Assembly (NCBI RefSeq): GCF_001591405.1
Contig: NZ_BCUV01000007.1
Coordinates: 1,240,001 to 1,304,000 of the forward strand
Length of the DNA: 64,000 nt
DNA from: Janibacter terrae NBRC 107853
Lineage (GTDB): Bacteria > Actinomycetota > Actinomycetes > Actinomycetales > Dermatophilaceae
Direction of reading: 5' to 3'
Shown in pieces: positions 24,514 to 40,175 of the stretch. The notes under the pieces were generated by a model that did no database searches, was not told the DNA's origin, and saw only the letters and a list, made by a program, of their open reading frames with translations. The first letter of the stretch is position 1. Every line of letters starts with the position of its first letter. The position numbers and the translations under genes are program-made.

Positions 24514-26037
24514 TCAGAAGAAGCCGAGCTTGTTCTGGTCGTAGCTCACCAGCAGGTTCTTGGTCTGCTGGTAGTGATCGAGCATCATCTTGTGGTTCTC
24601 ACGTCCGATGCCGGACGCCTTGTAGCCACCGAAGGCAGCACCCGCGGGGTACTGGTGGTAGCAGTTGGTCCAGACCCGGCCGGCCTGGATGCCCCGGCCC
24701 ATGCGGTAGGTGGTGTGGGCACTGCGCGACCAGACGCCCGCGCCGAGGCCGTAGAGCGAGTCGTTGGCGATCGACAGGGCTTCCTCCTCGTCAGTGAAGG
24801 AGGTCAGCGAGACGACCGGGCCGAAGATCTCCTCCTGGAAGATGCGCATCTTGTTGGTGCCCTCGAAGACCGTCGGGGCGATGTAGTACCCGCCCGAGAG
24901 GTCACCGCCGAGGTCGACCACCTCACCGCCGGTGAGCACCTTGGCGCCCTCCTCGCGGCCGATGTCGAGGTAGCTCTTGATCTTCTCGAACTGGTCATTG
25001 CTCGCCTGGGCGCCCATCATCGTCTCGGTGTCGAGGGGGTTGCCCTGGACGATGGCCTCGACCCGCTTGATGGCGTCGGGGACGAACTTCTCGTACATAC
25101 CCTTCTGGACCAGCGCCCGCGACGGGCACGTGCAGATCTCGCCCTGGTTGAGCGCAAACATCGAGAAGCCTTCGAGTGCCTTGTCGTAGAAGGCGTCGTC
25201 CTGGGCGGCCACGTCGTCGAAGAAGACATTCGGCGACTTACCACCGAGCTCGAGCGTGACGGGGATGATGTTCTGGCTGGCGTACTGCATGATCAGCCGG
25301 CCGGTCGTCGTCTCACCGGTGAAGGCGATCTTGGCGATGCGCGGGCTCGACGCGAGCGGCTTGCCGGCCTCGAGGCCGAAGCCGTTGACGACATTGAGGA
25401 CGCCGGCGGGCAGCAGGTGGCCGATGAGCTCCATGACCTTGAGGATCGACCACGGGGTCTGCTCGGCCGGCTTCAGGACGATGCAGTTGCCGGCGGCCAG
25501 AGCGGGCGCGAGCTTCCAGACGCCCATGAGGATCGGGAAGTTCCACGGGATGATTTGCCCGACGACGCCGAGCGGCTCGTGGAAGTGGTACGCGATGGTG
25601 TCGTTGTCGATCTCGGTGTTGCCGCTCTCCTGGGCGCGGATGGCCCCGGCGAAGTAGCGGAAGTGGTCAACTGCCAGCGGGATGTCCGCGGCCAGCGTCT
25701 CGCGCACGGCCTTGCCGTTGTCCCAGGTCTCGATGACCGCGATGTCCTCGAGGTTGGCCTCGATGGTGTCGGCGATCTTGAGCAGGATATTGGACCGCTC
25801 GGTGATCGAGGTGCGGCCCCAGGCGTCCTTGGCGGCGTGGGCCGCGTCGAGGGCCTTGTCGACGTCCTCGGCGGTGCTGCGTGCGACGCGGGTGAAGACC
25901 TGCCCGGTCACCGGCGTGATGTTGTCGAAGTATTCTCCGTTCACCGGGGCGACCCACTCGCCACCGATGAAGTTGTCGTACTGCGCCTTGACCTCGATGG
26001 TCGAGTCCGAGCTGCCCGGCTGGCTGTAGACGGCCAT
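24514..26037 (-). CDS. NAD-dependent aldehyde dehydrogenase (ExaC/AldA type)
   Basis: A 507-residue ALDH that oxidises acetaldehyde or similar short aldehydes to acids. It has IPWNFPILM (about 166-174), the glycine motif FTGETTTGR, the catalytic Glu in LELGGKSPN and the catalytic Cys in [11 protein letters not shown]. The start at 26037 is preceded by AGGAGG; a longer frame to 26145 has no start signal. DUF779 follows. It is divergent from the iron alcohol dehydrogenase, and the intergenic region holds a 20-bp palindrome shared with mno and mftA. This suggests it works downstream of mycofactocin-linked alcohol oxidation. Confidence 0.93.
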
Positions 26038-26111
26038 GTCTGTCTGCCTCCTGAGAGTCAACCGACGACGCTCCGTCGCGCCGTCGTCCTGGGCCGACCG
26101 TAGGACGGGGG

Positions 26112-26132
26112 AGGTTGGTCGAAGGTTGGTCG
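26112..26132. repeat. Tandem direct repeat, one helical turn apart, in the ALDH/ADH intergenic region
   Basis: AGGTTGGTCG occurs at 26112-26121 and again at 26123-26132, an 11-bp period. This places both copies on the same DNA face, as activator sites often are, about 75-95 bp before the ALDH start. Confidence 0.6.
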
Positions 26133-26143
26133 CGTGCGCACCC

Positions 26144-26163
26144 ACCTACCCGATCGGGTAGGT
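26144..26163. promoter_or_regulatory. Operator palindrome A of the alcohol-oxidation regulon
   Basis: ACCTACCCGATCGGGTAGGT is a perfect 20-bp palindrome in the divergent region between the aldehyde dehydrogenase and the alcohol dehydrogenase. Its core TACCCGATCGGGTA resembles NarL-family heptamers (TACCCNT repeats). Related sequences occur at 34671-34690 and 40676-40695. Confidence 0.75.
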
Positions 26164-26212: not shown

Positions 26213-27454
26213 ATGAGACCGGGAGGGATCACGTCGACGACGACGAGCCGACACCGACACGCGGACCCGGAGTCCGCGTCCGAGGTGACCGGTCCGTCCG
26301 ACGGCCCCTTCCTCCTGAAGTTCCACGCCCCGGAGATCCTCTTCGGCCCCGGCTCGCTCGACGAATCCGGCCGTGCCGCAGCGCGATTGGGCGCGCAGCG
26401 TCCATTCGTCGTCTCGGACCCGGGCATCGTCGAGGCGGGCTGGGTCGACGAGCTCGTCCTGCTCCTCCGGGCCGAGGGTCTCCAGCCGACGGTGTGGACC
26501 TCGGTGACTCCCAACCCCAAGGACCACGAGATCGCCGCCGCCTACGAGCGCTACCTCGAGGTGGGTGGTGACGTCATCGTCGCCATCGGAGGGGGTTCCT
26601 GTGCCGACGCGGCGAAGGGGGTCGCGGTCCTTGCGGGCAACGGCGGCGACATCCGCGACTATGCGGGTATCGACAAGGTCGACGCGCCGATCCCGCCGGT
26701 GCTCATCATCCCGAGCACCTCGGGCACGGGCGCCGACGTCTCGCAGTTCTGCATCGTCACCGACACCGACCGCCGGGTGAAGCTGACGATCATGGGCCGC
26801 GCCCTCGTCCCGGACATCTCGATCACCGACCCGCGGCTGCTCACGACGATGCCCGAGGACCTCAACGCCGCGACCGGTCTCGACGCGCTGACCCATGCCG
26901 TCGAGTCGTACGTCTCCCGGGCGCACAACCCGATCGCCGACGGTCAGGCGCTGAGCGCCGTGGGGCTCGTCTGCGGCCACCTGCGCGAGACGATGGACCA
27001 CCCCTTCGACCTCGGGCCGCGGGGCAAGATGGCGCAGGCGAGCCTGCAGGCCGGCATGGCCTTCACCAACGCGATCCTCGGCGCGACGCACGCGATGAGC
27101 CACCAGGTCGGCGGCCTCCTCGACGCACCCCACGGGGTGATCAACGGCGTGCTGCTGCCGCACGTCATCCGCTACAACGCCCGTGCGGCGCCCGACCGCT
27201 TCGTCGGGCTGGCGCGCTCGGCCGGGCTGACCGTCGGCGACGTGCCGGGCGACGAGGCCGCCGAGCTGCTCGCCGACCACGTGCGCCGGCTGGCCGACGA
27301 CGTCGGCGTCCCGCGGGGCCTGCGCGACCTCGGCGTGCGGGAGGAGGACCTCGACTCCCTCTCGGCGACCACCCTGGAGGACGCCTGCCTGACGACCAAC
27401 CCGCGGGCGGCCGACCAGGACGACATCCGGGCGCTCTTCCGGGGCGCGCTGTGA
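26213..27454 (+). CDS. Iron-containing (group III) alcohol dehydrogenase
   Basis: A 413-residue group III alcohol dehydrogenase. The NAD-binding GGGSCADAAKG (about 126-136), STSGTGAD, and metal ligands Asp in SITDPRL and His in LDALTHAVESY, THAMSHQ and DAPHGVING are visible. The N-terminal 30 residues are a variable extension. It probably oxidises a primary alcohol or diol. In M. smegmatis, from memory, a 1,3-propanediol dehydrogenase occupies the same place next to MnoSR. It overlaps the sensor kinase gene by 4 bp (GTGA), so enzyme and sensor are co-translated. TACGGT 6 nt upstream supports the ATG. Confidence 0.88.
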   Translation: MRPGGITSTTTSRHRHADPESASEVTGPSDGPFLLKFHAPEILFGPGSLDESGRAAARLGAQRPFVVSDPGIVEAGWVDELVLLLRAEGLQPTVWTSVTPNPKDHEIAAAYERYLEVGGDVIVAIGGGSCADAAKGVAVLAGNGGDIRDYAGIDKVDAPIPPVLIIPSTSGTGADVSQFCIVTDTDRRVKLTIMGRALVPDISITDPRLLTTMPEDLNAATGLDALTHAVESYVSRAHNPIADGQALSAVGLVCGHLRETMDHPFDLGPRGKMAQASLQAGMAFTNAILGATHAMSHQVGGLLDAPHGVINGVLLPHVIRYNARAAPDRFVGLARSAGLTVGDVPGDEAAELLADHVRRLADDVGVPRGLRDLGVREEDLDSLSATTLEDACLTTNPRAADQDDIRALFRGAL

Positions 27455-28851
27455 GCACCCCGCGGTCGGCCCACGACCTCGAGGCGCTCACCGGTGTCCG
27501 CTCGGGCAAGGGGTCCTACTACCGCGCCTACGTCCGCTCCGACGAGCGCACCCAGCGGGCCGTGCGGGCGATGGACTCGATCTCCCGGGCGCTCGTGCGC
27601 ACCCACGAGGGTCCGCGAGGACTCCTCGAAGAGGTCGTGCGCGCGGCGGCGTCCCACCTCGAGGCGCAGTGGATGATCCTCGCGATCGCCGACGGCCGGC
27701 TCATCGGGGCCCGGCCCCGCGTCCTCGCCCTGGCGAAGGGGGAGACCACCCCCGTCGACGACGAGGAGCAACTGCCGCCGATGGTGCGCCGCGAGCTGGG
27801 CGCGATCCGTGCGGGTCTCGCGGTGCGCACGGCCGACGAGGGGCCGTGGGTGCGGGTGCCGGTCGTGCTCGCCGGGACCCCCGTCGGCGCGCTCGCCGGG
27901 CTGCACGGCCTGGCCGCGGACCCCGAGCCCGGCGACCTCGCGGTGCTGCGGATCCTCGCCAACCAGGCCGCCGTCTCGCTGCACACGTCGGAGCAGTATC
28001 TCGAGGGCCAGCGCCAGCACCGCCGGGCGCAGAGCCTCTACGACGAGGTGCAGGCGCAGGCCCGCGACCTCGAACAGCGCACCCACGAGCTGCACCGCCT
28101 CGAAAAGAGGCTCGAGCTGGCCCGGCAGCGCGAGCTCATCGACACCGAGCGCGGCCGGATCGCCCGCGAGCTGCACGACTCGGTGACGCAGTACGTCCTC
28201 TCGGCCGGCATGGCGGTCGAGATCGCGCGGGGCGAGGTCGAGGCACGGTCGGGGACCGCCGACCCGATGCACGAGCAGCTCGTCACCGCCAAGGACCTCA
28301 CCCAGCAGGCCGTGAGCCAGCTGCGCCGGGCGATCTACGCGCTGAGCCGCTCCCAGGGCGAGACCCTCGCCTCGCTGCCCGACCTCGTCCGCGAGGTCGC
28401 CGAGCACCACCGCAGCCACCTGCAGGTCAAGGTCCGCGTCGCGGGCGAGGCCGAGCCGCTGGGCGCCGACGCCGAGCACGACATCGCCCGGGCGGTCGGC
28501 GAGGCGATGTTCAACGTCGCGCTCCACGCGCAGGCGACGCGGGCGGTGGTGCGCCTGCACTACCGGCCCGACGAGGTCGTCGCGTCGGTGGCCGACGACG
28601 GCTGCGGCGACCCGGTCGTGCTCGGGCGGCTGCTGCGCGTCGAGCGTCGCAGCACCGACGGCAGCCACCGCGGCCTGGCCAACATCGAGGCGCGGGTGGC
28701 CGACCTCGGCGGGCGGGTGCGGTTCCGCCGCGCCCGCATCGGGGGAGTGCGGGTCGAGATCCGGGTGCCCGTCCCGTCGGACGGCGAGCGGCACAGCCTC
28801 ATCGAGCAGCTCGCGCAGGGTGACCGGACCGGTGAGAGGGGACGAGCATGA
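27451..28851 (+). CDS. mnoS: GAF-domain sensor histidine kinase, MnoS-like
   Basis: A 466-residue cytoplasmic kinase without membrane segments. A GAF-like domain occupies about 45-180, a coiled coil 190-235, a HisKA_3 domain with phospho-accepting His242 (RIARELHDSVTQY), then a HATPase_c domain with a partial N box (EAMFNVALHAQA) and a G box (DDGCG; GLANIEARV). It overlaps the response regulator by 4 bp and the alcohol dehydrogenase by 4 bp. Synteny with the M. smegmatis MnoS/MnoR locus, which controls NDMA-type alcohol dehydrogenase and mycofactocin genes, supports the name. The ligand sensed is unknown. Confidence 0.82.
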   Translation: MSTPRSAHDLEALTGVRSGKGSYYRAYVRSDERTQRAVRAMDSISRALVRTHEGPRGLLEEVVRAAASHLEAQWMILAIADGRLIGARPRVLALAKGETTPVDDEEQLPPMVRRELGAIRAGLAVRTADEGPWVRVPVVLAGTPVGALAGLHGLAADPEPGDLAVLRILANQAAVSLHTSEQYLEGQRQHRRAQSLYDEVQAQARDLEQRTHELHRLEKRLELARQRELIDTERGRIARELHDSVTQYVLSAGMAVEIARGEVEARSGTADPMHEQLVTAKDLTQQAVSQLRRAIYALSRSQGETLASLPDLVREVAEHHRSHLQVKVRVAGEAEPLGADAEHDIARAVGEAMFNVALHAQATRAVVRLHYRPDEVVASVADDGCGDPVVLGRLLRVERRSTDGSHRGLANIEARVADLGGRVRFRRARIGGVRVEIRVPVPSDGERHSLIEQLAQGDRTGERGRA

Positions 28852-29516
28852 CGACAGCGACGAGCACCACCGACGAGGACGAGATCCGGCTGCTCCTCGT
28901 CGACGACCACGCCATCGTGCGCCAGGGCCTGCGCTCGGTGCTCCAGCGCGAGGAGGGCATCCGGGTCGTCGGCGAGGCCGAGGACGCGGCCCGGGCCAAG
29001 GAGCTCGTGGCCGAGCTCTCCCCGCAGATGGTCTGCCTCGACCTCAAGCTCTCGACCTCCTCCGACAGCGAGGGCATCGCCCTGTGCGAGGAGCTCACGA
29101 CGCTCCACCCCGACATCGCGGTGCTCGTGCTGACGACCTTCCTCGACGAGCGGCTCGTGCTGCGGGCGATCCGGGCCGGCGCGCGTGGCTACGTCGTCAA
29201 GGACGTCGACACCTCGGGCCTCGTCCGGGCGATCCGTGACGTGAGCCGCGGGGGCAGCGCCTTCGATGCCCGGTCGGCGGCCGCGATGGTCCGCGGGCTG
29301 CACGGGGCGGAGGAGGAGCAGCCCAAGGAGCTGACGAGCCGCGAGCTCGAGGTCCTGCGGCTGCTCGCGTCGGGCCTGTCCAACAGCAAGATCGGCGCCG
29401 AGCTCTTCATCTCCGAGACGACCGCGAAGTTCCACGTCGGCAACATCCTGCGCAAGCTCGGCGTCTCGCGCCGGGCCGAGGCCGTGTACGCGGCCTCCAA
29501 GGCCGGCCTGCTCTGA
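28848..29516 (+). CDS. mnoR: LuxR/NarL-family response regulator, MnoR-like
   Basis: A 222-residue response regulator. The receiver domain has acidic Asp19/Asp20, phospho-acceptor Asp65 in VCLDLKL and Lys in YVVKDVD. The C-terminal LuxR helix-turn-helix (about 155-215) has LTSRELEVLRLLASGLSNSKIG and FHVGNILRKLGV. It is coupled to the kinase by ATGA. NarL-family regulators recognise TACCC-type repeats, so it is the best candidate to bind the palindromes at 26144, 34671 and 40676; this is inference. It ends 10 bp from the convergent mftM. Confidence 0.85.
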   Translation: MTTATSTTDEDEIRLLLVDDHAIVRQGLRSVLQREEGIRVVGEAEDAARAKELVAELSPQMVCLDLKLSTSSDSEGIALCEELTTLHPDIAVLVLTTFLDERLVLRAIRAGARGYVVKDVDTSGLVRAIRDVSRGGSAFDARSAAAMVRGLHGAEEEQPKELTSRELEVLRLLASGLSNSKIGAELFISETTAKFHVGNILRKLGVSRRAEAVYAASKAGLL

Positions 29517-29526
29517 CCCCCTTCGC

Positions 29527-30444
29527 TCAGGCGAGGTCGAGCACGAGCCAGCCCCCGTGGTGCTCCTCGACGGCGAAGGGGAGGCCGGTGCGCAGGCCGT
29601 AGGCGGCCAGGTCCTCGCGGGTGAGGGTGCGCACGTGACCCCACAGCTCCTCGGGCTCGTCCTCGTAGGGAACGGCGATGACGACGCGGCGGCGGGCGAG
29701 GCGGACCGCCTCGGTGACGACCCGCCAGCCGTGCTGCGGCTCGAGGTGCTCGAGCAGGTGGAGCGCGACGACGGTGTCGGCGCACCCGTCGGGCAGCGGC
29801 ACGTGGGCGGCGTCCGCGGTGAGCGCCTCCACCGGCGTGCCGAGTTGCGCCGAGACCTGCTCGAGCAGGCGGATCGACCCTGCGGAGACGTCGATGGCCG
29901 TCACCTCGCGGGTCCCGGCCTGGCGCAGGGAGAAGAACCCGAAGCACGAGCCCAGCTCGACGACCGAGTCGCCGACGAGCACCTCCTCGGCGCGCGCGTA
30001 GACGGGGGCGTACCCGGCGACCGCGCCGTGCATCCCCGCGGAGGGCGAGTCGGCGAGGTCGGTCGCGGCCTCGATCGTGCGCAGGCTCGTGCGGTAGAAG
30101 TGCTCCCACGCGCTCAGCGGGTCGTCGGCGGACGTCAGGACGATGCCCGTCATGATCCGCTCGAAGACGTCGGCGCCGCGCAGCCACCCGGGGCCGAAGA
30201 TCTCCCGGGAGAGCAGCTCCGCGAGACCGGCGTGCACCTCCTCGAGGGGGACGCGGTGCGCGATGGCGACCCGGCCCCCTTCGTGGCTGATGTCGAAGTG
30301 CTCGGTCCGCACGGTCCGCAGGGTGCGCCGCGGCAGCTCGCCGTCGGTGCGCACGACCCGGACGAGGTCGTCGACGTAGGCGGGCCGCCCGGGGGCGAGC
30401 GGGTCGATGGGCCGCGGCTCGGCGCTCGCGACGACGGGGATCAC
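29527..30444 (-). CDS. mftM: SAM methyltransferase, MftM-like (mycofactocin oligosaccharide methyltransferase)
   Basis: A 305-residue class I methyltransferase with a 130-residue N-terminal region, motif I VVELGSCFGFFSLR (about 165-178), acid in VTAIDVSAGS, and a HLLEHLEPQHGW segment. Its size, position beside mnoSR and the mno cluster, and a YRTSL...EAATDL segment agree with MftM, which O-methylates a glucose of mycofactocin's glucan chain. That function is known from mycobacteria and transferred here by context. The GTG start at 30444 overlaps the stop of the VWA gene (GTGA), so it is the last gene of the moxR-VWA unit. Confidence 0.75.
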   Translation of the reverse strand: MIPVVASAEPRPIDPLAPGRPAYVDDLVRVVRTDGELPRRTLRTVRTEHFDISHEGGRVAIAHRVPLEEVHAGLAELLSREIFGPGWLRGADVFERIMTGIVLTSADDPLSAWEHFYRTSLRTIEAATDLADSPSAGMHGAVAGYAPVYARAEEVLVGDSVVELGSCFGFFSLRQAGTREVTAIDVSAGSIRLLEQVSAQLGTPVEALTADAAHVPLPDGCADTVVALHLLEHLEPQHGWRVVTEAVRLARRRVVIAVPYEDEPEELWGHVRTLTREDLAAYGLRTGLPFAVEEHHGGWLVLDLA

Positions 30445-31970
30445 GTCCCCGCCCCCACGGTCGCGGCGGACACGCGCTCGAGCCCGCCGAGGCTGCGCAC
30501 CACCTGCACGCGGTCGCACGACTCGGCGTAGAGGGGCAGGTCGCAGCTGCCGAGGCCCCACGAGTAGCGCGGCTCGGGCGTGAGCCAGATGACCGAGCGC
30601 ACCCGCCGGGCGATCTCCTCGAAGACCTCGATCCGCGGGTCGTTGCCGTTGTTGCGCCCGTCGCCGAGGACGATGACCGTCGTGCGCCGGTTGAGCGCGC
30701 CGCCGTACTGCTCGAGGAAGACCTCGAAGGCGGACCCGAAGTCGGAGTCGGCGTCGACGTCGAGCACCCCACCCGCGGGCAGGCCGGACATGACGAGCGA
30801 CAGCGCCTCCTCGACGGGGTGGTCGGCGAAGAGGTCGGTGATCTCGACGCAGTCCTGGACGAAGGCGAAGGAGCGCACCTTGGCCGCGACGGACTGCAGC
30901 GAGTGGACGAGGTGGAGCATGAAGCGCGAGGTCTGCCGCACCGACAGCGAGACGTCGCACAGCACGAGCAGCCGCGGCCGGTCCTCGACCTTGCTCACCG
31001 TGACGGGGCGGAAGGGCACGCCGTCGTAGCGCATGTTGCGGCGCATCGTCAGCCGGCCGTCGATCGTCCCGCGGGCCGCGGTGTGCCGCCGGGGGCGGGG
31101 CGCGCCGTGCAGCGAGCGCAGCAGCCGGCGGATCGAGTCCTCGAGCGCGGCCCGGTCGGCCTCGTCGACGGTCTCGGCCTGGGCCGCCTCGATCTCGCGC
31201 ATCTCCAGCTCGGCCTCGCGGGCCATGAGCTCCTCGAGGAACCCCTTGAGCCGCTCGGGCAGCGCGTCGAGGAAGGGCTGCAGCGCCTCGCGCAGCGCCG
31301 CCATCTCCGGTCCCTCGTCCTCGTCGCCCTCGGGCAGGTCGGAGGACTCGTCGAGCCACGCGAGCAGGGCCATCTCCTGCGCGACGCTCAGCTCGGCGTC
31401 GACCTGCATGCCCGGTCGGCGGGCGAGGTCGCCCGGTGCCCCGGGGTTGTGCAGCCGCGAGGTGGAGATCTGCACGCGCGCGGCCTCGTCGGGACCGGCC
31501 TGGGTCCCGTCGGACAGGACGATCTCGTCGGTGAGGTTGGCCATGTCGAGGCGGTTGGCCTCCTGGTGCAGGTTGTACTGCTGCGCCATGTCCTCGGGCC
31601 GGAAGAAGTCGTGCAGGTCGACCGGCTTGCCGTGCGAGTGACCGTCCTGAGGCATGTCGCCCGGCTCCTCTGACAGGGAGAACTCGGTGAGCTCGCCGTC
31701 GTCGGAGAGGTCGTCGTGGCTGTGCCCGTGCTCGGGGTCCTGGGTGAGCACCGGCCGCAGCGAGAAGAAGCGGTCGAAGGTCTCGTCGAAGACCGGCATG
31801 TCCCGGCGGTCCTTGATGAGGCTGACCGCGAGGGCGGCCCGGAGGACCTCGCGGTCCTCCAGGACGCCCGGCTGCGCGGCGGCTTTCAGCCCGTCGATGG
31901 CCTCGGCGACGCTCGCCGGGACACCGCGCAGCCGCAGGATCCGCACGAAGCGGTGGAGGGTGGTCTCCAT
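30441..31970 (-). CDS. VWA domain (CoxE/NorD-like) protein with His clusters
   Basis: A 509-residue protein with a C-terminal von Willebrand A domain whose MIDAS motif DVSLS is at 339-343, and a largely helical N-terminal half. His-rich stretches occur at 81-85 (HGHSH) and 111-113 (HSH), followed by DLHDFFRP. It lies just downstream of the MoxR ATPase, the classic pairing of CoxD/CoxE, NorQ/NorD and CbbQ/CbbO systems. In those systems the ATPase and VWA protein remodel a metalloenzyme or insert metal. Here the likely client is the neighbouring Mno alcohol dehydrogenase (inference). mftM starts inside its stop codon. Confidence 0.85.
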   Translation of the reverse strand: METTLHRFVRILRLRGVPASVAEAIDGLKAAAQPGVLEDREVLRAALAVSLIKDRRDMPVFDETFDRFFSLRPVLTQDPEHGHSHDDLSDDGELTEFSLSEEPGDMPQDGHSHGKPVDLHDFFRPEDMAQQYNLHQEANRLDMANLTDEIVLSDGTQAGPDEAARVQISTSRLHNPGAPGDLARRPGMQVDAELSVAQEMALLAWLDESSDLPEGDEDEGPEMAALREALQPFLDALPERLKGFLEELMAREAELEMREIEAAQAETVDEADRAALEDSIRRLLRSLHGAPRPRRHTAARGTIDGRLTMRRNMRYDGVPFRPVTVSKVEDRPRLLVLCDVSLSVRQTSRFMLHLVHSLQSVAAKVRSFAFVQDCVEITDLFADHPVEEALSLVMSGLPAGGVLDVDADSDFGSAFEVFLEQYGGALNRRTTVIVLGDGRNNGNDPRIEVFEEIARRVRSVIWLTPEPRYSWGLGSCDLPLYAESCDRVQVVRSLGGLERVSAATVGAGT

Positions 31971-31983
31971 CGTCGCTCCCTCC

Positions 31984-33174
31984 TCACAGGGGGCGCTTGC
32001 GCGCGCCCCGACCGGCGAAGGAGCGGTCGCCCTGACCCGGTGTCACCTTGCGGGAGGTCCCGAGACCCCCGGGTGCTCCGTAGTAGTCGGTGTCGTGGCG
32101 GCCGGGGGCGTCCTTCGCCTTGCGGGCCTCGCGCCCGTCGACGTCGTCGTCCCCGTGGTCGGAGCCGTGGGGATGAGGGTGGTCGTGCGTGTGGTCGTGC
32201 CCGTGCCCGTGGTCGTGCCCCTCGGGGACGACGGCATTGGGGTCGACGAGCTTGGGCAGCGCCTCGCCGGCACGGCGCAGGTCGCGGTCGTACTTGACGA
32301 CGACGCTCAGCGTGTCCGACAGCAGGGTCGCGTCGAGCTCGTCGACCCCGAGGACGGCGAGCGTGCGCGCCCAGTCGATGGTCTCGGAGATGCTCGGCGC
32401 CTTGCGCAGCTCGAGCTCGCGCAGGCCGCGGACGATCTCGACGAGGCGCGCGGCGAGCGCGTCCTGCAGCCCGGTCTCCTTGGAGCGCAGGATGTCCAGC
32501 TCGCGCTCGGGGCTCGGGTAGTCGAGGAAGAGGTGCAGGCAGCGGCGCTTGAGCGCGGCCGACAGGTCGCGGGTGTTGTTGGAGGTCAGCACGACGAGCG
32601 GCAGGTGCGTCGCCTCGATCGTCCCGATCTCGGGGATGGAGATCTGGAACTCGGAGAGCAGCTCGAGCAGGACCGCCTCGAGGGCCTCGTCGGCGCGGTC
32701 GACCTCGTCGATGAGCAGCACGACGGGCTCCTCGCTCGTGATCGCCTCGAGGAGCGGGCGGGCGGCGAGGAAGCGCTCGGAGAAGAAGATGCTGTCGTGC
32801 GCCGAGATCTGGTCGACGGCCTCGGTGAGGTCGGCGGCGTCGGAGACGACCTGCCCGATCTTCTCCCGCAGGATCTGCGTGTAGAGCAGCTGCTTGCCGT
32901 AGTCCCACTCGTAGAGGGCCTTCGACTCGTCCTGGCCCTCGTAGCACTGCAGGCGGATGAGGCGGCGTCCGGTCACCTCGGCGAGGCTCTGGGCCAGCTG
33001 CGTCTTGCCCACGCCGGCCGGCCCCTCGAGGAGGACCGGCTTCTCCAGGCGGGTCTGGAGGAAGACGGTGGTCGCGAGCTTGCGGTCGGCGAGGTACCCG
33101 TGCTCGCGGAACTTCTCGATGGTGTCCTCGACGCTCGCGAGGGCGGGCACGGCGTCCGTCGTGGTGGTGGACAT
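31984..33174 (-). CDS. MoxR-family AAA+ ATPase with histidine-rich C-terminal tail
   Basis: A 396-residue MoxR ATPase with Walker A LLEGPAGVGKTQLAQ near residue 50, Walker B PVVLLIDEVDRAD, sensor 1 LTSNNTRDL and arginine-finger ALKRRCLH. The conserved core ends near residue 315. Residues 318-340 then hold ten histidines in 23 positions (pattern HDHGHGHDH...HPHPH), a likely Ni/Zn/Fe-binding tail not found in ordinary MoxR proteins. A basic, glycine-rich end follows. It is paired with a VWA partner downstream and follows mno, with a strong hairpin between. A metallochaperone or activase role for Mno is inferred. Confidence 0.9.
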   Translation of the reverse strand: MSTTTTDAVPALASVEDTIEKFREHGYLADRKLATTVFLQTRLEKPVLLEGPAGVGKTQLAQSLAEVTGRRLIRLQCYEGQDESKALYEWDYGKQLLYTQILREKIGQVVSDAADLTEAVDQISAHDSIFFSERFLAARPLLEAITSEEPVVLLIDEVDRADEALEAVLLELLSEFQISIPEIGTIEATHLPLVVLTSNNTRDLSAALKRRCLHLFLDYPSPERELDILRSKETGLQDALAARLVEIVRGLRELELRKAPSISETIDWARTLAVLGVDELDATLLSDTLSVVVKYDRDLRRAGEALPKLVDPNAVVPEGHDHGHGHDHTHDHPHPHGSDHGDDDVDGREARKAKDAPGRHDTDYYGAPGGLGTSRKVTPGQGDRSFAGRGARKRPL

Positions 33175-33204
33175 GGCGCTCCTGTCGGTGGTTCGTCCGG
33201 GGGT

Positions 33205-33257
33205 GCGGCGGTCCCCCTTCGTCCTCCTACCCGGTGGGGACGAAGGGGGACCGCCGC
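33205..33257. terminator. Large hairpin between mno and moxR, built from an inverted CGAAGGGGG pair
   Basis: A perfect 20-bp stem, GCGGCGGTCCCCCTTCGTCC (33205-33224) and its complement (33238-33257), has a 13-nt loop. It begins 16 bp after the mno stop. It would stabilise or end the mno message and reduce read-through into moxR. Confidence 0.85.
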
Positions 33258-33273
33258 GGCTTGGTGAGGTGCG

Positions 33274-34566
33274 TCAGCTGATGAGGTCGTCGAGGTCACC
33301 GGTCATGCAGTGCTCGACGACGGGGCGCACGGTCTCGAAGGTGCACTCCTTGGCGTTGCCCGGGGTGCAGGCGTCGCCGAGGACGTGGTTGGTGATGCGG
33401 TCGACGTCCGCGGCGTCACCCTTGATCTCCGGGGAGTTCTTGTAGTACTCCGTCGGCCCGGTGCCCAGGCGGTTCTTGGAGTAGCTGTCCTGGGTGACGT
33501 CGACGAAGCGCTCGGGGATGCCCACGTCGCGCAGCAGCCGGATCGACGCCTCGAGCGCGGCGTCGGCGGCCTGCACCTTGGTCATGCCGTGGGTGTCGAT
33601 GCCCATGGCCTCCGCGATGTCGGCGAAGCGGCCGTAGCAGGCGGGCATGTTGAAGGCCCACACGCGCGGCAGGGCGATGGCGTTGTTGAGCCCGTGGTGC
33701 GTGTCGTAGAAGGCGCTCACCGCGTGGCTGATCGAGTGGATGATGCCGAGGCCACCGGAGTTGAAGGCCTGGGCGGCGATGTACTGGGCGTACATCATGC
33801 CCTCGCGGCCCTTGAGGTCCTGACCGTTCCAGACCGCCTCGCGCAGGTTCTCGGAGGTGAGCTTGATGGCGCGGATCGCGTTGCCGAGCGAGGGCTCGAA
33901 GTTCAGCCGCGAGACGTAGGGCTCGGAGGCGTGCGCGAGGACGTCGAAGCCACACTGTGCGGTGTAGTCGACCGGGCAGTCGTAGTAGAGCACCGGGTCG
34001 TCGACGGCGAGGCTGGCGACGGACGCGTCGTCGAAGGCGACGTACTTGTGCGGGTTGTCCGGATCGGTCGTCGTGTCGGTGATGACGTAGGCCCACGAGG
34101 TCTCAGAGCCGGTGCCGGCCGTGGTGGAGACCGCGATGTGCGGCGGGTTCTTCGGGTTCTCGGACATGTTGAAGCCCTCGAACTCGTTGACATTGCGACC
34201 GTCGTGCGCGACGGAGATGCGCGCGCCCTTACAGGCGTCGTGCGCGGAGCCGCCGCCGATGGAGACGAAGGAGTCGCAGGAGTTCTCCTGATAGAGCGCC
34301 ACGGAGTCCATGACGTTGTAGTCCTTGGGGTTGGACTCGACCTTGTCGTAGACGACGACCTCGAGGCCGTGGTACCTCATCGACTCGACGATGTTCTTGA
34401 CGATGTCCGTGCCGCGCAAGCCGGTCGTCATGACGAGCGTCTTGCGGAAGCCGAGCTTGAGGGCCTCCGGACCGATCATCTCCCAGGCGCCGGGGCCCAT
34501 CATGGCGCGCGGGAAGGGGTGGAACTCCTTGATCGGGAATGGCTTGAGCAGATCATCAACCTGCAT
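33274..34566 (-). CDS. mno: NDMA-type (mycofactocin-dependent) methanol/alcohol dehydrogenase
   Basis: A 430-residue group III alcohol dehydrogenase of the Mno/Mdo subtype, which keeps its nicotinamide tightly bound and passes electrons to mycofactocin in vivo and to NDMA in assays. Diagnostic stretches are FPIKEFHPFPRA near residue 10, KVESNPKDYNVM, SIGGGSAHDACKGA, STTAGTGSETSWAYVITD, and the metal-site histidines in HSISHAVSAFYDTHHGLNNAIALPRVW (split here only by function). AAAGGAGA precedes the ATG. The regulon palindrome lies 105-124 bp upstream. It oxidises methanol or other primary alcohols, with mycofactocin made by the adjacent operon. Confidence 0.93.
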   Translation of the reverse strand: MQVDDLLKPFPIKEFHPFPRAMMGPGAWEMIGPEALKLGFRKTLVMTTGLRGTDIVKNIVESMRYHGLEVVVYDKVESNPKDYNVMDSVALYQENSCDSFVSIGGGSAHDACKGARISVAHDGRNVNEFEGFNMSENPKNPPHIAVSTTAGTGSETSWAYVITDTTTDPDNPHKYVAFDDASVASLAVDDPVLYYDCPVDYTAQCGFDVLAHASEPYVSRLNFEPSLGNAIRAIKLTSENLREAVWNGQDLKGREGMMYAQYIAAQAFNSGGLGIIHSISHAVSAFYDTHHGLNNAIALPRVWAFNMPACYGRFADIAEAMGIDTHGMTKVQAADAALEASIRLLRDVGIPERFVDVTQDSYSKNRLGTGPTEYYKNSPEIKGDAADVDRITNHVLGDACTPGNAKECTFETVRPVVEHCMTGDLDDLIS

Positions 34567-34765: not shown

Positions 34766-36151
34766 TCAGCCGCCGGGACGGCGGGGCAGGAGGGCTCCGA
34801 AGGAGCGTGCTCGCGCGGCGCCGACCCAGAGGCCGGCGCCGTAGGCGAGGTCGTCGAGGCGGCGGCTGATCGGGGCGTAGGTCGCCTCGGGGTGGTCGGT
34901 CCGGGCGACGACGACGTCGACGAGTAGTGAGGTGACGAGGGCGCGCCGCACGGTGCTGCTTCGGGTCGCGGCGACTGCGGCGAGCGGCCACCAGTGGCGC
35001 AGCAGCAGCGCGGTCTCCTGCCGGACGGCCCAGCCCAGGCCCTGGGCGCCGAGGCGCACGGCCAGCTCGCGCCGCTGCGGTCCCTCGGGCAGCCGCCGGT
35101 CGAGCGAGCGCACGCCCCAGAGCAGGCCGAGGCCGGCGACGGGCAGCGACCAGCGGCGACGCGCGAGCACCGCGGCGGCGGCGACGGCCATCGTCGCGGA
35201 CATGACGGCGGGGGCGCCCTTGCGCCCGTGGCGCGCGGCGAGCCCGGCGCCGCCGGTGCCGTAGAGGAACTTGCGGCCGAGCCAGCCGCCGACGGTGGCA
35301 CGGGTGTCGTGCCAGGCGATCTCGTCGGGGTCGTAGCGCACGGTCTGCCCGGCGTCGACGAGCCGCCAGACGAGGTCGACGTCCTCGCCGACGCGCATGT
35401 CCTCGGCGAAGCCGCCGGCGGCGCGCAGCCGCTCGACGCGTGCCACGAGGCAGGCGCTGGGCAGCCACCCGACGGCGGCTCCCGGCCGTACGGAGCAGGC
35501 GCGGCGTCCGAGGGCGAGCGAGGAGACCTGCTCGTCGTAGCGCTCGAACCACGCGGGGTCGTCGGCGCGGGCCCGGCTGCGCACGAGGGGCCCGACGAGC
35601 GCCACCTGGTCGTCGGCGAAGTGCCGGGCGAGCCGGCGCAGCATCGCGGTATCGGCCTGGACGTCGGAGTCGACGAGCGCGACGAAGGGAGTGTCCACCG
35701 CGAGCACGCCGGCGTTGCGTGCCCCGGCGGGGCCGAGGTTGACGGGCAGGGAGATGACCCGCGCGCCGTGGTCGGCGGCGACCTGCGCGACCACCTCGGG
35801 GTCGTGCGAGGCGTCGTCGACGACGATGCAGCGCAACCCGTCGAGGGAGTCGAGGGCTCGCGCGAGCTGCTCGGGCCGGTCGCGGATCGGGGTGACGACG
35901 GTGATCTCCGACGGGTCGGGGCCGGCGCCGTGGAGCACGGGGTCGGCGAGGTTGCCGTCGACGAGGCGGGCGACGAGGGGCTCGTCGGCGGGGCCGCGCA
36001 CGACGAGGCGACCGTCGACGACGCGCTCGCGGGCGGCGGCGCCCAGGCGCACGGCCCGCAGCGGGGAGCCGCCGACGAGCAGGCCGTCGTCGTAGGCCCG
36101 CACGTCGTGGCGGATCCGGGCCTCGTAGCCGGGGGCAAACCGGGTGGTCAT
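34766..36151 (-). CDS. mftF: Mycofactocin glycosyltransferase MftF
   Basis: A 461-residue GT-A-fold family 2 glycosyltransferase, which adds beta-1,4-linked glucose units to premycofactocin. The donor-binding part has TVVTPIRDRPEQLARAL near residue 88, CIVVDDASHD, NLGPAGARNAG, VDSDVQ (DxD-like) and GEDVDLVWRL. C-terminal hydrophobic segments (about 300-345) suggest membrane association. The ATG at 36151 overlaps the stop of the SDR gene (ATGA). It is the last gene of the mft operon here, 200 bp before mno. Confidence 0.9.
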   Translation of the reverse strand: MTTRFAPGYEARIRHDVRAYDDGLLVGGSPLRAVRLGAAARERVVDGRLVVRGPADEPLVARLVDGNLADPVLHGAGPDPSEITVVTPIRDRPEQLARALDSLDGLRCIVVDDASHDPEVVAQVAADHGARVISLPVNLGPAGARNAGVLAVDTPFVALVDSDVQADTAMLRRLARHFADDQVALVGPLVRSRARADDPAWFERYDEQVSSLALGRRACSVRPGAAVGWLPSACLVARVERLRAAGGFAEDMRVGEDVDLVWRLVDAGQTVRYDPDEIAWHDTRATVGGWLGRKFLYGTGGAGLAARHGRKGAPAVMSATMAVAAAAVLARRRWSLPVAGLGLLWGVRSLDRRLPEGPQRRELAVRLGAQGLGWAVRQETALLLRHWWPLAAVAATRSSTVRRALVTSLLVDVVVARTDHPEATYAPISRRLDDLAYGAGLWVGAARARSFGALLPRRPGG

Positions 36152-36933
36152 CCGCTGAACCCCCCGTCGGCGGCGACGACGCCGCCGTTGAGCGCGGCTC
36201 CGGCGGGGGAGCAGCACAGGCTCACGGTGGCGGCGATCTCGTCGGGGTCGAGGGGGCGGCGGAGCAGCTGGTGCTCGGCGAGGTGCTCGCTCGTCGTGCC
36301 GTAGAGGGCGGCCGTCGCCGCGAGCATCGGGGTGTCGGTGCCGCCGGGGCTCACGGCGACGGCGGTGATGCCGGTGCCGACGAGGTCGGCGGCGAGCCCG
36401 CGCACCATGCCGACGACGGCGTGCTTGGCGGCGTTGTAGGCGGCGAGGTGGAAGAGGCCGCGCCCTCCGGCCGCGGAGGCGATGGCGACGAACCGGCCGC
36501 CCGAGGGGTCCGGCCCAGCGAGCATCGCGGGGACGGCGGCGGCCGCGGTGTGCCAGACGCCGAGCGCGTCGACCTGCCAGAGCAGGTCGAGCTGGTCGGT
36601 CGGTGTCTCCCAGAGGGGTTGGCCTCCGGCGACGATCCCGGCGGCGGCGACCGCGGCGTCGAGCCGCCCCCACCGCTCGACGGCGTCGACGACCGCGTCG
36701 GCCACGGCCGCGGGGTCGCGCACGTCGGCGACCCGGGTGACGACCCGGCCGCCGGCTCGCGGGTCGGCGGCGACCGACTCGAGGTCGTCGACCGTCGGCA
36801 TCGGGTAGGGGTGGGCGGTGGGGCCGGCGCACGCGTCGAGCGCGAGGACGTCGTAGCCCTCCTCCGCGAGACGAAGGGCGGTCGCCGCCCCCATCCCGCG
36901 GGCGGCCCCGGTGACGAGGGCGACCCGGCTCAT
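36148..36933 (-). CDS. Mycofactocin-coupled SDR oxidoreductase
   Basis: A 261-residue SDR with TGAARGMGAATA at residue 8, catalytic Ser in AIASAAGG and the YNAAK motif. The family that depends on mycofactocin holds its NAD non-exchangeably and has an insertion after strand 2. The segment CAGPTAHPYPMPTVDDLE (about 35-52) fits that insertion. It is embedded between mftE and mftF with ATGA overlaps on both sides, so it is expressed stoichiometrically with the cofactor enzymes. The substrate is an unidentified alcohol or carbonyl. Confidence 0.87.
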   Translation of the reverse strand: MSRVALVTGAARGMGAATALRLAEEGYDVLALDACAGPTAHPYPMPTVDDLESVAADPRAGGRVVTRVADVRDPAAVADAVVDAVERWGRLDAAVAAAGIVAGGQPLWETPTDQLDLLWQVDALGVWHTAAAAVPAMLAGPDPSGGRFVAIASAAGGRGLFHLAAYNAAKHAVVGMVRGLAADLVGTGITAVAVSPGGTDTPMLAATAALYGTTSEHLAEHQLLRRPLDPDEIAATVSLCCSPAGAALNGGVVAADGGFSG

Positions 36934-37643
36934 GACGAGGGTTCCAGGGTGGGCTGCAGCGCCTGCGCGACGACGTCGTCGACCATCGCGGCGAGGACCA
37001 GCGCGCCCTCGGCGGCGCTCGCGCCGGTCGGGTCGCCGAGCACGCCGTTGGGCGAGACGGCGATGACCCCGCCGGCCATCATCGTGGGCAGGATCTCGGC
37101 GAGGGGCCGGGTGTCGCCGGGTTCGGCGCGGTCGAGGCGGACGGTCTCGGGGCGCAGGTGGAGCAGCAGCGAGGTCTCGGTCCGCCCGGCGTGCAGGTCG
37201 ACGCTCTCGGTGGCGCACGCGGCCCAGCCGACGTCGTGGCCCTCGTCGACGAGCTGCCCCACGGCGGCGGTCAGCGCCTGGCCGTTGCCGCCGTGCCCGT
37301 TGACGAGCAGCACCCGTGGGGCCCAGGTGCGGGCCGAGCGGACGAGCTCGACGACGACCTGGCGCAGGACTTCGGTGCCGATCGAGATGGTCCCGGGGAA
37401 GTGCTGGTGCTCGCCGCTCGACCCGAGCGCGACGACGGGCGCGACCCACGCCGTCGTCCCCGCGGCGGTGAGCCGCTCGGCCACGCCCTGGGCGACGGCG
37501 GTGGCGATGAGCGCGTCGGTGTCGAGCGGCAGGTGCGGGCCGTGCTGCTCGATCGACCCGACCGGCACGACGAGGAGGTCCACCCCTTCGGCCTCCGCGG
37601 AGGCAAGGTGGGCCAGCTCGCGCGGCCGGTCGGGGGAGGGCAT
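36930..37643 (-). CDS. mftE: Mycofactocin precursor peptide peptidase MftE
   Basis: A 237-residue creatininase-family metallopeptidase that releases the C-terminal Val-Tyr-derived moiety (AHDP) from modified MftA. Metal ligands are visible in VPVGSIEQHGPHLPLDTD (Glu, His, Asp) and LVNGHGGNGQ. The ATG is 5 bp after the stop of mftD. The 3' end overlaps the SDR start by 4 bp. Confidence 0.92.
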   Translation of the reverse strand: MPSPDRPRELAHLASAEAEGVDLLVVPVGSIEQHGPHLPLDTDALIATAVAQGVAERLTAAGTTAWVAPVVALGSSGEHQHFPGTISIGTEVLRQVVVELVRSARTWAPRVLLVNGHGGNGQALTAAVGQLVDEGHDVGWAACATESVDLHAGRTETSLLLHLRPETVRLDRAEPGDTRPLAEILPTMMAGGVIAVSPNGVLGDPTGASAAEGALVLAAMVDDVVAQALQPTLEPSS

Positions 37644-37648
37644 GCCCG

Positions 37649-38899
37649 TCAGCGCGTCGTCGCGGCCGTGGGCACACCGAGCTCGCGGTGGAAACCCTCG
37701 GGGACGAGCAGGTGCTCGGGGCCCAGCTCGGCGACGGAGGAGAGGGCGAGGCCGCGCAGCGCGGAGTCGACGCCGCCGTTGAGCAGGTCGAGGACGTTTT
37801 CCACCCCGGCCTGGCCGTTGGCGGCGAGCCCCCAGAGGTAGGCCCGGCCGATGAGGACGGCCTTGGCGCCGAGGGCGAGGGCCTTGACGACGTCGGAGCC
37901 GCGGCGGATGCCGCCGTCCATGACGACGTCGACCTGGTGGCCGACCCGCTGCGAGATCGGGTGGACCATGCGGATCGCGGCGGGGGTACCGTCGAGGTTG
38001 TTGCCGCCGTGGTTGGACACCGAGATGCCGGCGACGCCGACGTCGACCGCGCGCAGCGCGTCGTCGACGCGGGAGACACCCTTGAGGACGAAGGGGGTGC
38101 CGCTGATCTGCGACCACTGCTCCCGCATCCACGCGACGTCCTGCCAGGAGGGCGGCGGCGTGGTCATCCACTCGTAGTAGGCACCGAAGAAGGTCGGCGC
38201 CTCCCCTCCGGGCGGGGTGAGGTTGGGCGCGGTGAGGTCGGGCAGCTTGCCGGTGTCGATGAACTGGCGGCCGAAGTCGACGAGCCAGCGAGGCTTCGTC
38301 GCGACCTGCGGGGCGAGCCGGATCATCGCCTTGAGGTCGACCTTCTCGGGGATCTCCGGGCTGCCCCAGTCACGGCCGATGGAGAAGGACCAGTCGAGGG
38401 TGGCGATGAGGCCCTTGGCGCCGGCCTCGTGGGCGCGGGTCATCCGCTGGATCATCGTGTCGCGGTCGCCGGTCCAGTACATCTGGAAGAAGGTCGTCGC
38501 TCCGGTGTCGCAGACCTCCTCGACGGACTTCGAGGCGAAGTTGGACAGGCCCATGATCGTGCCGCGGGCCGCGGCGGCCCGGGCGACGGCGACCTCGCCG
38601 TCGGGGTGGACCGCCTGGACGCCGGTGGGGCTGATGATGACCGGCGAGCCGATCTGCTGGCCGAAGACGGTCGTCGACTGGTCACGCTCGGGCTGCTGGC
38701 CGACGACGTGCGGTGCCAGGCCGATCTCGGCGAAGGCGCTCTGGTTGTCGTCGCGACTCTGGCCGCGCTCCGACCCGGCGACGAGTGCGCCGTAGACGGG
38801 AGCGGGCAGCTTTTTGCGGGCGCGCTCCTGGGCGACGGCGACGGACTCGAACCAGGGGTTCTGCTTCCAGGGGTTGGTGAGCCACTCGGGCTTGTTCAT
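37649..38899 (-). CDS. mftD: Mycofactocin maturation FMN enzyme MftD
   Basis: A 416-residue FMN-dependent alpha-hydroxy-acid-dehydrogenase-type TIM barrel, which oxidatively deaminates AHDP to premycofactocin. The FMN site has SPTGVQAVHPDGE near 90-102, LKGVSRVDDA, and SVSNHGGNNLDGTPA with the catalytic His and Arg (DGGIRRGSDV). The N-terminal PEWLTNPWKQNPWFESVAVAQERAR is typical of MftD (stretch split only in description). It lies 13 bp downstream of mftC. Confidence 0.93.
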   Translation of the reverse strand: MNKPEWLTNPWKQNPWFESVAVAQERARKKLPAPVYGALVAGSERGQSRDDNQSAFAEIGLAPHVVGQQPERDQSTTVFGQQIGSPVIISPTGVQAVHPDGEVAVARAAAARGTIMGLSNFASKSVEEVCDTGATTFFQMYWTGDRDTMIQRMTRAHEAGAKGLIATLDWSFSIGRDWGSPEIPEKVDLKAMIRLAPQVATKPRWLVDFGRQFIDTGKLPDLTAPNLTPPGGEAPTFFGAYYEWMTTPPPSWQDVAWMREQWSQISGTPFVLKGVSRVDDALRAVDVGVAGISVSNHGGNNLDGTPAAIRMVHPISQRVGHQVDVVMDGGIRRGSDVVKALALGAKAVLIGRAYLWGLAANGQAGVENVLDLLNGGVDSALRGLALSSVAELGPEHLLVPEGFHRELGVPTAATTR

Positions 38900-38912: not shown

Positions 38913-40175
38913 TCATCGAGGGTCGAAGCCAGCGAGCGGGCTCTCGGCGCACGGCGAGACCGGACGCGGCGGGGCAGCGGTCTCCCCTTCGGGCCGGCGG
39001 CGCATGAGCTTGAGCATCACGGGCTCGTTGCGGGTGGGGTTGGCCTTGGAGTGGTCCTGGCTGGCGGCGGGCACGGTGCGCTCGCCCGAGAGGGCGGACT
39101 CGCCGTAGCCCTGGACGCACTCCGGGTCGGGGCCGTCGAGCGGCAGGCCGGTGAAGAACTTCGCGGCCATGCAGCCGCCGCGGCAGCTGTCGAAGTGGGC
39201 GCACTTCGAGCAGGCGCCACCGGTCTGAGGGGAGCGCAGCTCGCGGAAGAGCTCGGAGTCGCGCCACACCCCGCCGAAGCCGCCGTCGGTGAGCAGGTTC
39301 CCGGCGTGGAACTGGTCGTGGATCGCGAAGGGGCACGCGTAGACGTCACCGACGGGGTCGATGAGGCAGACGACGCGGCCGGCGCCGCAGAGGTTGAGCC
39401 CGGGCAGGGACTCGCCGAAGGCCGCAAGGTGGAAGAAGGAGTCGCCGGTGAGCACGTCCTCTCCGTGAGCCATGAGCCAGTCGTAGAGCACCCGCTGCTG
39501 CTCCGGCAACGGGTGCAGTTCGTCCCACACGTCGGCGCCGCGGCCCGAGGGACGCAGCCGGGTCAGGCGCAGCGTGGCGCCGTAGCGGTCGGCGATGGCC
39601 TTGAAGTCGTCGAGCTGGCTGATGTTCTGTCGGGTGCAGACGACGGAGATCTTGGCGTCACCGAACCCGGCGGCCTGCAGGTTGTCGAGGGCACGCAGCG
39701 CCATGTCGTAGGAGCCGGGGCCGCGGACGTAGTCGTTGACCTCGGCGGTCGCGCCGTCGAGGGAGATCTGTACGTCGACGTAGTCGGTCGCGGCGAGGAA
39801 GGCCGCGCGCTCGGGGGTGATCCGGGCGCCGTTCGTCGAGAACTTCACGCCCACGTCGTGGGCGACCGCGTACTCGAGCAGCTCCCAGAAGTCGGGGCGG
39901 ATCGTCGGCTCACCACCGCCGATGTTGACGTAGAAGACCTGCATCCGCTGCAACTCGTCGATGACGGCCTTGCACTGCTCGGTGCTCAACTCGCGCGGGT
40001 CTCGCCGACCCGAGCTGGAGAGGCAGTGGGCGCACTCGAGGTTGCAGGCGTAGGTCAGCTCCCAGGTCAGGCAGATCGGGGCGTCGAGGCCGAACTCGAA
40101 CTGCTCGACGAGCGTGCCGCCCTCGGGGCGGGCTGGTGCCTGCCGGGCCGCGGGTCGGTCGGTGGTGAGGGTCAT
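38913..40175 (-). CDS. mftC: Mycofactocin radical SAM maturase MftC
   Basis: A 420-residue radical SAM/SPASM enzyme that decarboxylates and cyclises the Val-Tyr end of MftA. The [4Fe-4S] motif is Cys44-x3-Cys48-x2-Cys51 in YACNLECAHC. Auxiliary-cluster cysteines lie in NLCGAGR, VYACPFAIH, GACSKCAHFDSCRGGC and PDPECVQGY. GGGEPT and STNGARI are also intact. A 35-residue basic tail follows the SPASM domain. It starts 9 bp after mftB. Confidence 0.95.
   Translation of the reverse strand: MTLTTDRPAARQAPARPEGGTLVEQFEFGLDAPICLTWELTYACNLECAHCLSSSGRRDPRELSTEQCKAVIDELQRMQVFYVNIGGGEPTIRPDFWELLEYAVAHDVGVKFSTNGARITPERAAFLAATDYVDVQISLDGATAEVNDYVRGPGSYDMALRALDNLQAAGFGDAKISVVCTRQNISQLDDFKAIADRYGATLRLTRLRPSGRGADVWDELHPLPEQQRVLYDWLMAHGEDVLTGDSFFHLAAFGESLPGLNLCGAGRVVCLIDPVGDVYACPFAIHDQFHAGNLLTDGGFGGVWRDSELFRELRSPQTGGACSKCAHFDSCRGGCMAAKFFTGLPLDGPDPECVQGYGESALSGERTVPAASQDHSKANPTRNEPVMLKLMRRRPEGETAAPPRPVSPCAESPLAGFDPR

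Follow-up and report, generated by a model that had tools for sequence, protein, structure and literature searches.

Which enzyme does an ATPase with a histidine-rich tail serve when its gene lies, together with that of a von Willebrand factor A (VWA) protein, next to an alcohol dehydrogenase gene? This question is raised by a locus of Janibacter terrae NBRC 107853, which was analyzed as a window of 64,000 nucleotides (contig NZ_BCUV01000007.1, positions 1,240,001 to 1,304,000). In this window, mno, the gene for an N,N-dimethyl-4-nitrosoaniline (NDMA)-dependent methanol dehydrogenase, is followed by genes for a MoxR-type AAA+ ATPase and a VWA_CoxE protein. A first-pass annotation had placed the gene pair downstream of an NDMA-type alcohol dehydrogenase, and the three open reading frames are located on the minus strand exactly at the coordinates it gave. 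We conclude that the pair is very likely a dedicated Mno maturase, because it is linked exclusively to mno, its MoxR protein has a NorQ/CbbQ-like fold, and its VWA protein has a NorD-like layout with HxH motifs (two histidines separated by one residue) in the linker.

The linkage to mno was examined in 645 actinobacterial genomes, 396 sampled evenly across the phylum and 249 belonging to a single order. A MoxR gene lies immediately downstream of mno on the same strand in all 47 testable cases, with the aligned ends 9–298 bp apart. A 48th mno-type gene, located at a contig end, was excluded. None of ten other iron-type alcohol dehydrogenase (Fe-ADH) genes found in these genomes, among them the window's second Fe-ADH gene, has an adjacent MoxR gene. 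When genomes were scanned with the MoxR protein, ∼50 actinobacterial loci were recovered at ≥60% identity, and at every locus uncut by a contig end, mno is directly upstream of the MoxR gene and a VWA gene directly downstream. The VWA gene is also next in line in nearly all trios retrieved. The pair thus displays the linkage to a single enzyme, here Mno, that characterizes metal-inserting, NorQD-like MoxR–VWA systems.

In the 249 genomes of the order sample, mftC is present in 131 and mno in 32, all of which are mftC-positive. Each of the 26 MoxR matches scoring at least 439 bits adjoins mno, so the pair goes with mno and not with mycofactocin. A role as a general mycofactocin component was ruled out, since none of the 99 mftC-positive genomes without mno in this sample carries a close MoxR homolog. 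The first-pass annotation had suggested a check of the co-occurrence of the three genes across genomes with mftA; with mftC as the marker, the close MoxR homologs do not extend to mycofactocin genomes at large. The short-chain dehydrogenase/reductase (SDR) nicotinoprotein of the window's own mft cluster (TIGR04504) likewise has no MoxR–VWA pair of its own.

The ATPase belongs to the MoxR family of AAA+ proteins, as judged by its Walker motifs and its nearest solved structures. Walker A (GPAGVGKT) and Walker B (VLLIDEVD) are intact in 84 of 84 trios. Comparison of an AlphaFold2 (AF2) model with known structures places NorQ and CbbQ on top, with Z scores of 16.9–18.9, and the next AAA+ protein follows at 15.1. 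In this model (predicted template modeling score, pTM, 0.64), the core is well predicted, residues 79–96, by which a helix-2 insert would be judged, are of low confidence, and the tail is disordered, with a predicted local distance difference test score (pLDDT) below 50 at residues 320–347. The tail includes the stretch GHDHGHGHDHTHDHPHPHGSDHG, in which 10 of 23 residues are histidines, precisely the number that had been counted in the first pass. At the local histidine frequency of 2.9%, the probability of this stretch is ∼3e-10 per given 23-mer. Its codons are mixed and follow no single simple repeat. A chance or low-complexity artifact was ruled out by the occurrence of the tail at the same place in many genera. 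His-rich MoxR tails have a median of eight HxH motifs. Past the histidines, a C-terminal motif (PGRH..YYG, GQG.RSF, and a basic end) is mostly retained where the His stretch is lost, and it is perhaps a peptide for docking with the VWA protein or Mno.

The second protein has the characteristics of a VWA_CoxE-type MoxR partner, with a gene directly beside moxR and an intact metal ion-dependent adhesion site (MIDAS), D339-V-S341-L-S343, whose DxSxS pattern is conserved in 84 of 84 homologs. Its AF2 model has a pTM of 0.43, and thus only the individual domains can be trusted. These comprise an N-terminal helical domain (residues 1–70), a disordered linker (72–194, pLDDT mostly below 50), helices (196–286), and a finger-like stretch with the VWA domain (∼289–505), an order of N-terminal domain, flexible linker, and VWA domain that NorD also has. 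The HGHSH and HSH clusters noted in the first pass are both present in the linker, and HxH clusters return near positions ∼81–85 and ∼113 in relatives. Among the VWA proteins of His-rich trios, 235 of 250 HxH motifs are inside the linker. No solved structure was found for this protein by sequence search. The structural matches that extend over the stretch preceding the domain include NorD (9qh8_G; Z 11.9, rmsd 3.7, 183 aligned residues) and the MIDAS domain of Rea1/Mdn1 (Z 12.1–12.4), although NorD and Rea1/Mdn1 tie with many other VWA domains.

The presumed client is identified by TIGR04266, the model for NDMA-dependent methanol dehydrogenases (674.8 bits, passing the cut-off of 625). Its metal ligands, D208, H212, H277, and H291, are unchanged in 81 of 81 homologs, and the closest solved structures are Bacillus-type methanol dehydrogenases and 1,3-propanediol dehydrogenases. 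Bacillus Mdh contains Zn, Mg, and tightly bound NAD and is decameric, as are type III alcohol dehydrogenases of this kind (PMC3602061). The mycofactocin signal described by Haft for these enzymes is centered on the NAD site, where the cofactor is non-exchangeable (PMC3023750).

Two corrections to the first-pass reading are needed, in that His-richness is not general and the genes are not without names. NCBIfam already has families for MadB, MadC, MadS, and MadR, which we take to derive from the mad locus of Rhodococcus jostii RHA1, reportedly named by Roccor et al. in 2024. This 2024 report is cited in PMC13210347. MadB and MadC share with the window's pair the gene order Mno/MadA–MoxR–VWA, MadS/MadR-type regulators, the Walker and MIDAS motifs, and the Mno ligands, but they have neither the His tail nor the HxH clusters. 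By the family cut-offs, the window's proteins are not members: The ATPase scores 370.9 bits against MadB (NF047784; cut-off 475), as a sister lineage, and the VWA protein scores 282.2 bits against MadC (NF047783; cut-off 600). A mycobacterial-type pair (L111) also falls under both cut-offs, whereas a MadA-lineage pair (L103) is above them, at 485 and 772 bits. The gene set of the operon is already catalogued, both as MadB/C/S/R and as the M. smegmatis mno operon, and the His-rich variant is new.

Among 81 distinct trios, 61 combine a His-rich MoxR tail with HxH motifs in the VWA protein, 18 have neither feature, and two are borderline. The sister lineage around R. jostii-type MadA, which has the same trio with no His tail and no HxH clusters, serves an Mno with identical metal ligands, and this indicates that His-richness is accessory rather than part of the core function. 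As far as its distribution among homologs tells, His-richness is thus something that particular lineages have added to, or lost from, a machine that is itself conserved. On the mno tree, the VWA trait changes three times and the tail five times; of the independent pairs, two agree and none disagrees. Because there are only two such pairs, a test of joint change cannot reach significance, and joint evolution of the two features was dropped as a statistical proof. A demand for His-richness by a different Mno metal site also found no support, as the ligands are identical and no alignment column discriminates. One Pseudonocardia locus (L045:2184-10787) carries a MadABC-like set without His features followed in tandem by a His-rich mno set. 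At another locus, L114 (G490:C30:3400-10200), mno and the MoxR core are 84% and 76% identical to the His-rich lineage, yet both His features are gone, and this locus is the strongest candidate for a case in which the two were recently lost together.

A similar gene order in Mycobacterium smegmatis, which the first-pass annotation had mentioned, is supported by published data. The expression of MSMEG_6242 (encoding Mno), 6241 (an AAA ATPase), and 6240 (a hypothetical protein) varies in concert (PMC7174638), the mno operon is described as msmeg_6242-6238 under the control of MnoSR (PMC11303327), and mno–moxR–VWA was seen directly at five mycobacterial loci (L025, L033, L034, L040, and L041). As in the window, MSMEG_6242-6236 group mno, the AAA ATPase, a gene at the VWA position, a propanediol dehydrogenase, MnoS/MnoR, and an mftM-type gene; in the window, however, the regulators and the second Fe-ADH are encoded on the other strand, and the VWA gene is followed by mftM. 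Transcripts of MSMEG_6240-6242 fall together 24–28-fold in a zur mutant, 4.6–6.4-fold in an smtB mutant, and 3–4.6-fold on zinc excess (PMC7174638). MSMEG_6241 and 6242 proteins both increase in mftC and mftD mutants (PMC8406134), and in a sigB mutant the moxR gene belongs to the genes with the largest decrease (PMC6529629). The transcript data show that the genes are regulated together and are linked, perhaps indirectly, to zinc status. A literature search, whose reach ended short of Roccor et al. 2024 and Shimizu et al. 2024, turned up no functional test or mutant data for the pair, which agrees with the first-pass remark that no chaperone had been shown for Mno. A search for His-rich MoxR–VWA proteins found nothing specific.

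The pair resembles NorQ/NorD in the AAA+ ring fold (Z up to 18.9), in a VWA protein with an N-terminal domain, disordered linker, and MIDAS, and in its dedication to one metalloenzyme. It differs in that its client would be a soluble nicotinoprotein alcohol dehydrogenase rather than a membrane oxidase, in that sequence identity is only ∼22%, and in its His-rich segments, none of which are described in the NorQD papers. NorQ twists the VWA domain of NorD and stretches its linker, and deletions in the NorD linker yield nitric oxide reductase without FeB (PMC13036017). The explanation we consider best, and hold with moderate confidence, is that the pair is a dedicated MoxR–VWA machine that matures Mno in the NorQ/NorD manner. 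Six MoxR subunits would form a ring, and the VWA protein would dock on its C-terminal face with the finger preceding the VWA domain in the pore, while gripping Mno through its MIDAS site and N-terminal domain. ATP cycles would then twist the VWA domain, pull the linker, and pry Mno open, such that the metal site could be filled, probably along with the non-exchangeable NAD(P) of the same cleft.

Metal loading may well be the main task of the pair, and this was the proposal of the first-pass annotation. Dedication to Mno, a NorQ/NorD-like build, and His segments where a metal store would be expected all favor that proposal, whereas the limited distribution of His-richness does not. If the NorQD description applies here, the MoxR tail exits the ring on the face where the VWA protein docks. 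Six His-rich tails on this face, with the HxH motifs of the VWA linker, could keep a divalent ion, whether Zn, Fe, Co, or Ni, close to the docked client. The His segments would then be an extra metal store, separate from the motor and lost or never gained in some lineages. HxH runs in a flexible tail beside a nucleotide-driven or chaperone domain are also found in UreE, HypB, and SlyD, which mostly handle Ni, have no VWA partner, and are expected to bear no sequence relation to the window's pair. Tentatively, the pair could be an AAA+ remodeler that carries its own metal on the His tails and linker HxH motifs and hands it over while opening its client. Mno would then be the first nicotinoprotein known to receive both its metal and its buried NAD(P) from a chaperone driven by ATP.

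Several observations weigh against metal loading by such a machine. The type III alcohol dehydrogenases FucO, DhaT, and Bacillus Mdh acquire metal and are not known to use a MoxR–VWA pair for this. The His segments are dispensable for the core task, given that the His-less lineage shares the client ligands, and no column in the alignment of 81 Mno proteins separates the clients of the two lineages. Only two to three independent events underlie the joint presence or loss of the His features, and the operon may respond to zinc indirectly, because it is also controlled by MnoSR and carbon supply. Moreover, by analogy with CbbQ/CbbO, the same architecture could remove an inhibitor instead of inserting a metal.

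CbbQ and CbbO, which clear inhibitors from Rubisco and have no known His-rich segments, share the MoxR–VWA architecture (PMC9976466), and CbbQ matches the MoxR model with Z scores of 18.6–18.7. A corresponding activase is plausible here, if rather unlikely: The pair would act by pulling on Mno after its completion, so as to expel a nucleotide that is damaged or inhibitory (ADP-ribose, or oxidized or wrong NAD(P)) or to permit NAD(P) replacement, and the His segments would have a regulatory role or act as a minor buffer for metal. Bacillus methanol dehydrogenases are indeed inhibited by ADP-ribose with a submicromolar Ki, and a helper protein relieves this inhibition (PMC12926040), and both the NAD-centered mycofactocin signal and the non-exchangeable NAD noted above fit this role. 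However, the mycofactocin-coupled SDR and Zn-dependent alcohol dehydrogenase nicotinoproteins hold the same buried NAD and show no such pair in the 99 mno-less genomes, the SDR of the window's mft cluster also does without one, and the His segments are left unexplained.

These segments are equally unaccounted for if the pair merely assists Mno folding, decamer building, or coupling to an electron-accepting partner while metal and NAD load spontaneously. We consider such a pure assembly chaperone less likely, as Bacillus Mdh and 1,3-propanediol dehydrogenase, both decameric, are not known to need a MoxR–VWA pair in order to form. It is consistent, nonetheless, with the decameric state of related type III enzymes (PMC3602061), with the fact that RavA and other MoxR proteins have large assemblies as their targets (PMC6987120, PMC10585395), and with the accumulation of Mno and MSMEG_6241 in mycofactocin mutants, for which a risk of Mno aggregation has been suggested (PMC8406134). 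Also less likely, and in our estimation improbable, is a role in metal detoxification or sensing, in which the His segments buffer or sense Zn, Ni, or Co and damp the ATPase at metal excess or scarcity without delivery to Mno. The zinc-dependent drop in operon transcripts (PMC7174638) would fit, and, as expected of a regulatory add-on, the His stretches lack order, vary in length, and are missing in some lineages. Nevertheless, the pair is strictly linked to one metalloenzyme and its operon rather than to metal-homeostasis genes.

CoxD/CoxE, including MSMEG_0748/0751, have a related MoxR core (core-only homologs, ∼45%–59% identity) and a VWA_CoxE-type partner, but their MoxR protein lacks a tail and their client is a Mo hydroxylase. 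MSMEG_0748 and MSMEG_0751, the MoxR and VWA proteins of CO dehydrogenase, bind each other in coimmunoprecipitation (PMC12657314), which is a mycobacterial precedent, by analogy, for a complex of this kind. In two genomes of another family, at L117 (G208:C1:4018000-4032000) and L118 (G051:C4:2806000-2821000), a CO-dehydrogenase/aldehyde-oxidase-like Mo-hydroxylase cluster stands head to head with the mno–MoxR–VWA trio, 5–10 kb apart. This cluster encodes large, FAD, and FeS subunits, CoxG, an XdhC-type factor, and its own CoxD-like MoxR, so that each metalloenzyme has one MoxR. Similar MoxR positions occur in several further genomes of the family. The Mo hydroxylase is possibly an aldehyde-oxidizing partner. 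The J. terrae genome itself encodes two more MoxR paralogs, L002 (C2:345653-346528) and L003 (C7:511233-512099), with ∼52% and ∼46% core identity, and L002 is adjoined by a VWA partner.

Features of the mno locus and its surroundings, in window coordinates
Feature	Position	Strand	Remarks
mno / mdo (madA-like)	33274..34566	minus	NDMA-dependent methanol/alcohol dehydrogenase, type III Fe-ADH, 430 aa, presumed client
MoxR-type AAA+ ATPase	31984..33174	minus	396 aa, core residues ∼12-312, Pfam AAA_5
MoxR His-rich stretch, residues 319-341	32152..32220	minus	10 His in 23
MoxR tail end, residues 342-396	31987..32151	minus	DGR..R.AKD.PGRH..YYG ... GQG.RSF ... R(K/R)RP, from alignment
VWA_CoxE protein	30441..31970	minus	509 aa, Pfam VWA_CoxE (PF05762), 2.2e-30
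HGHSH cluster, VWA protein residues 81-85, linker	31716..31730	minus	
HSH cluster, VWA protein residues 111-113, linker	31632..31640	minus	
mftM, mycofactocin oligosaccharide methyltransferase	29527..30444	minus	NF041255, 312.9 bits (> 200)
MadS/MnoS-type sensor histidine kinase, operon regulator	27451..28851	plus	NF047786, 513.3 bits (> 500)
MadR/MnoR-type response regulator	28848..29516	plus	NF047785, 335.8 bits (> 300)
Second Fe-ADH, position of M. smegmatis 1,3-propanediol dehydrogenase	26213..27454	plus	Pfam Fe-ADH; no own MoxR
mftC	38913-40175	minus	
mftD	37649-38899	minus	
mftE	∼36930-37718	minus	
Mycofactocin-coupled SDR, between mftE and mftF	∼36150-36930	minus	TIGR04504, 373.8 bits
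mftF	within 34766-36832	minus	
Acetaldehyde dehydrogenase ExaC	24514-26145		NF050026, 952 bits; beside second Fe-ADH

Transcription along the minus strand would proceed through mftC, mftD, mftE, the SDR gene, mftF, mno, moxR, the VWA gene, and mftM. A gap of 99 bp separates mno from moxR and one of 13 bp separates moxR from the VWA gene, whose stop is overlapped by the GTG start of mftM over four bases. ExaC likely catalyzes the next step of alcohol oxidation.

With this pair, the few known MoxR–VWA systems would gain one whose client is soluble and easy to purify, and the His-rich and His-less lineages, which act on the same client, offer a natural comparison for the role of His-rich tails on a motor protein. 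Mno is the gateway enzyme for the use of methanol, ethanol, and glycols in mycobacteria and related soil bacteria, and it is a candidate for engineered use of methanol or plastic monomers. If two further proteins must act on Mno, then its transfer to another host without them may fail.

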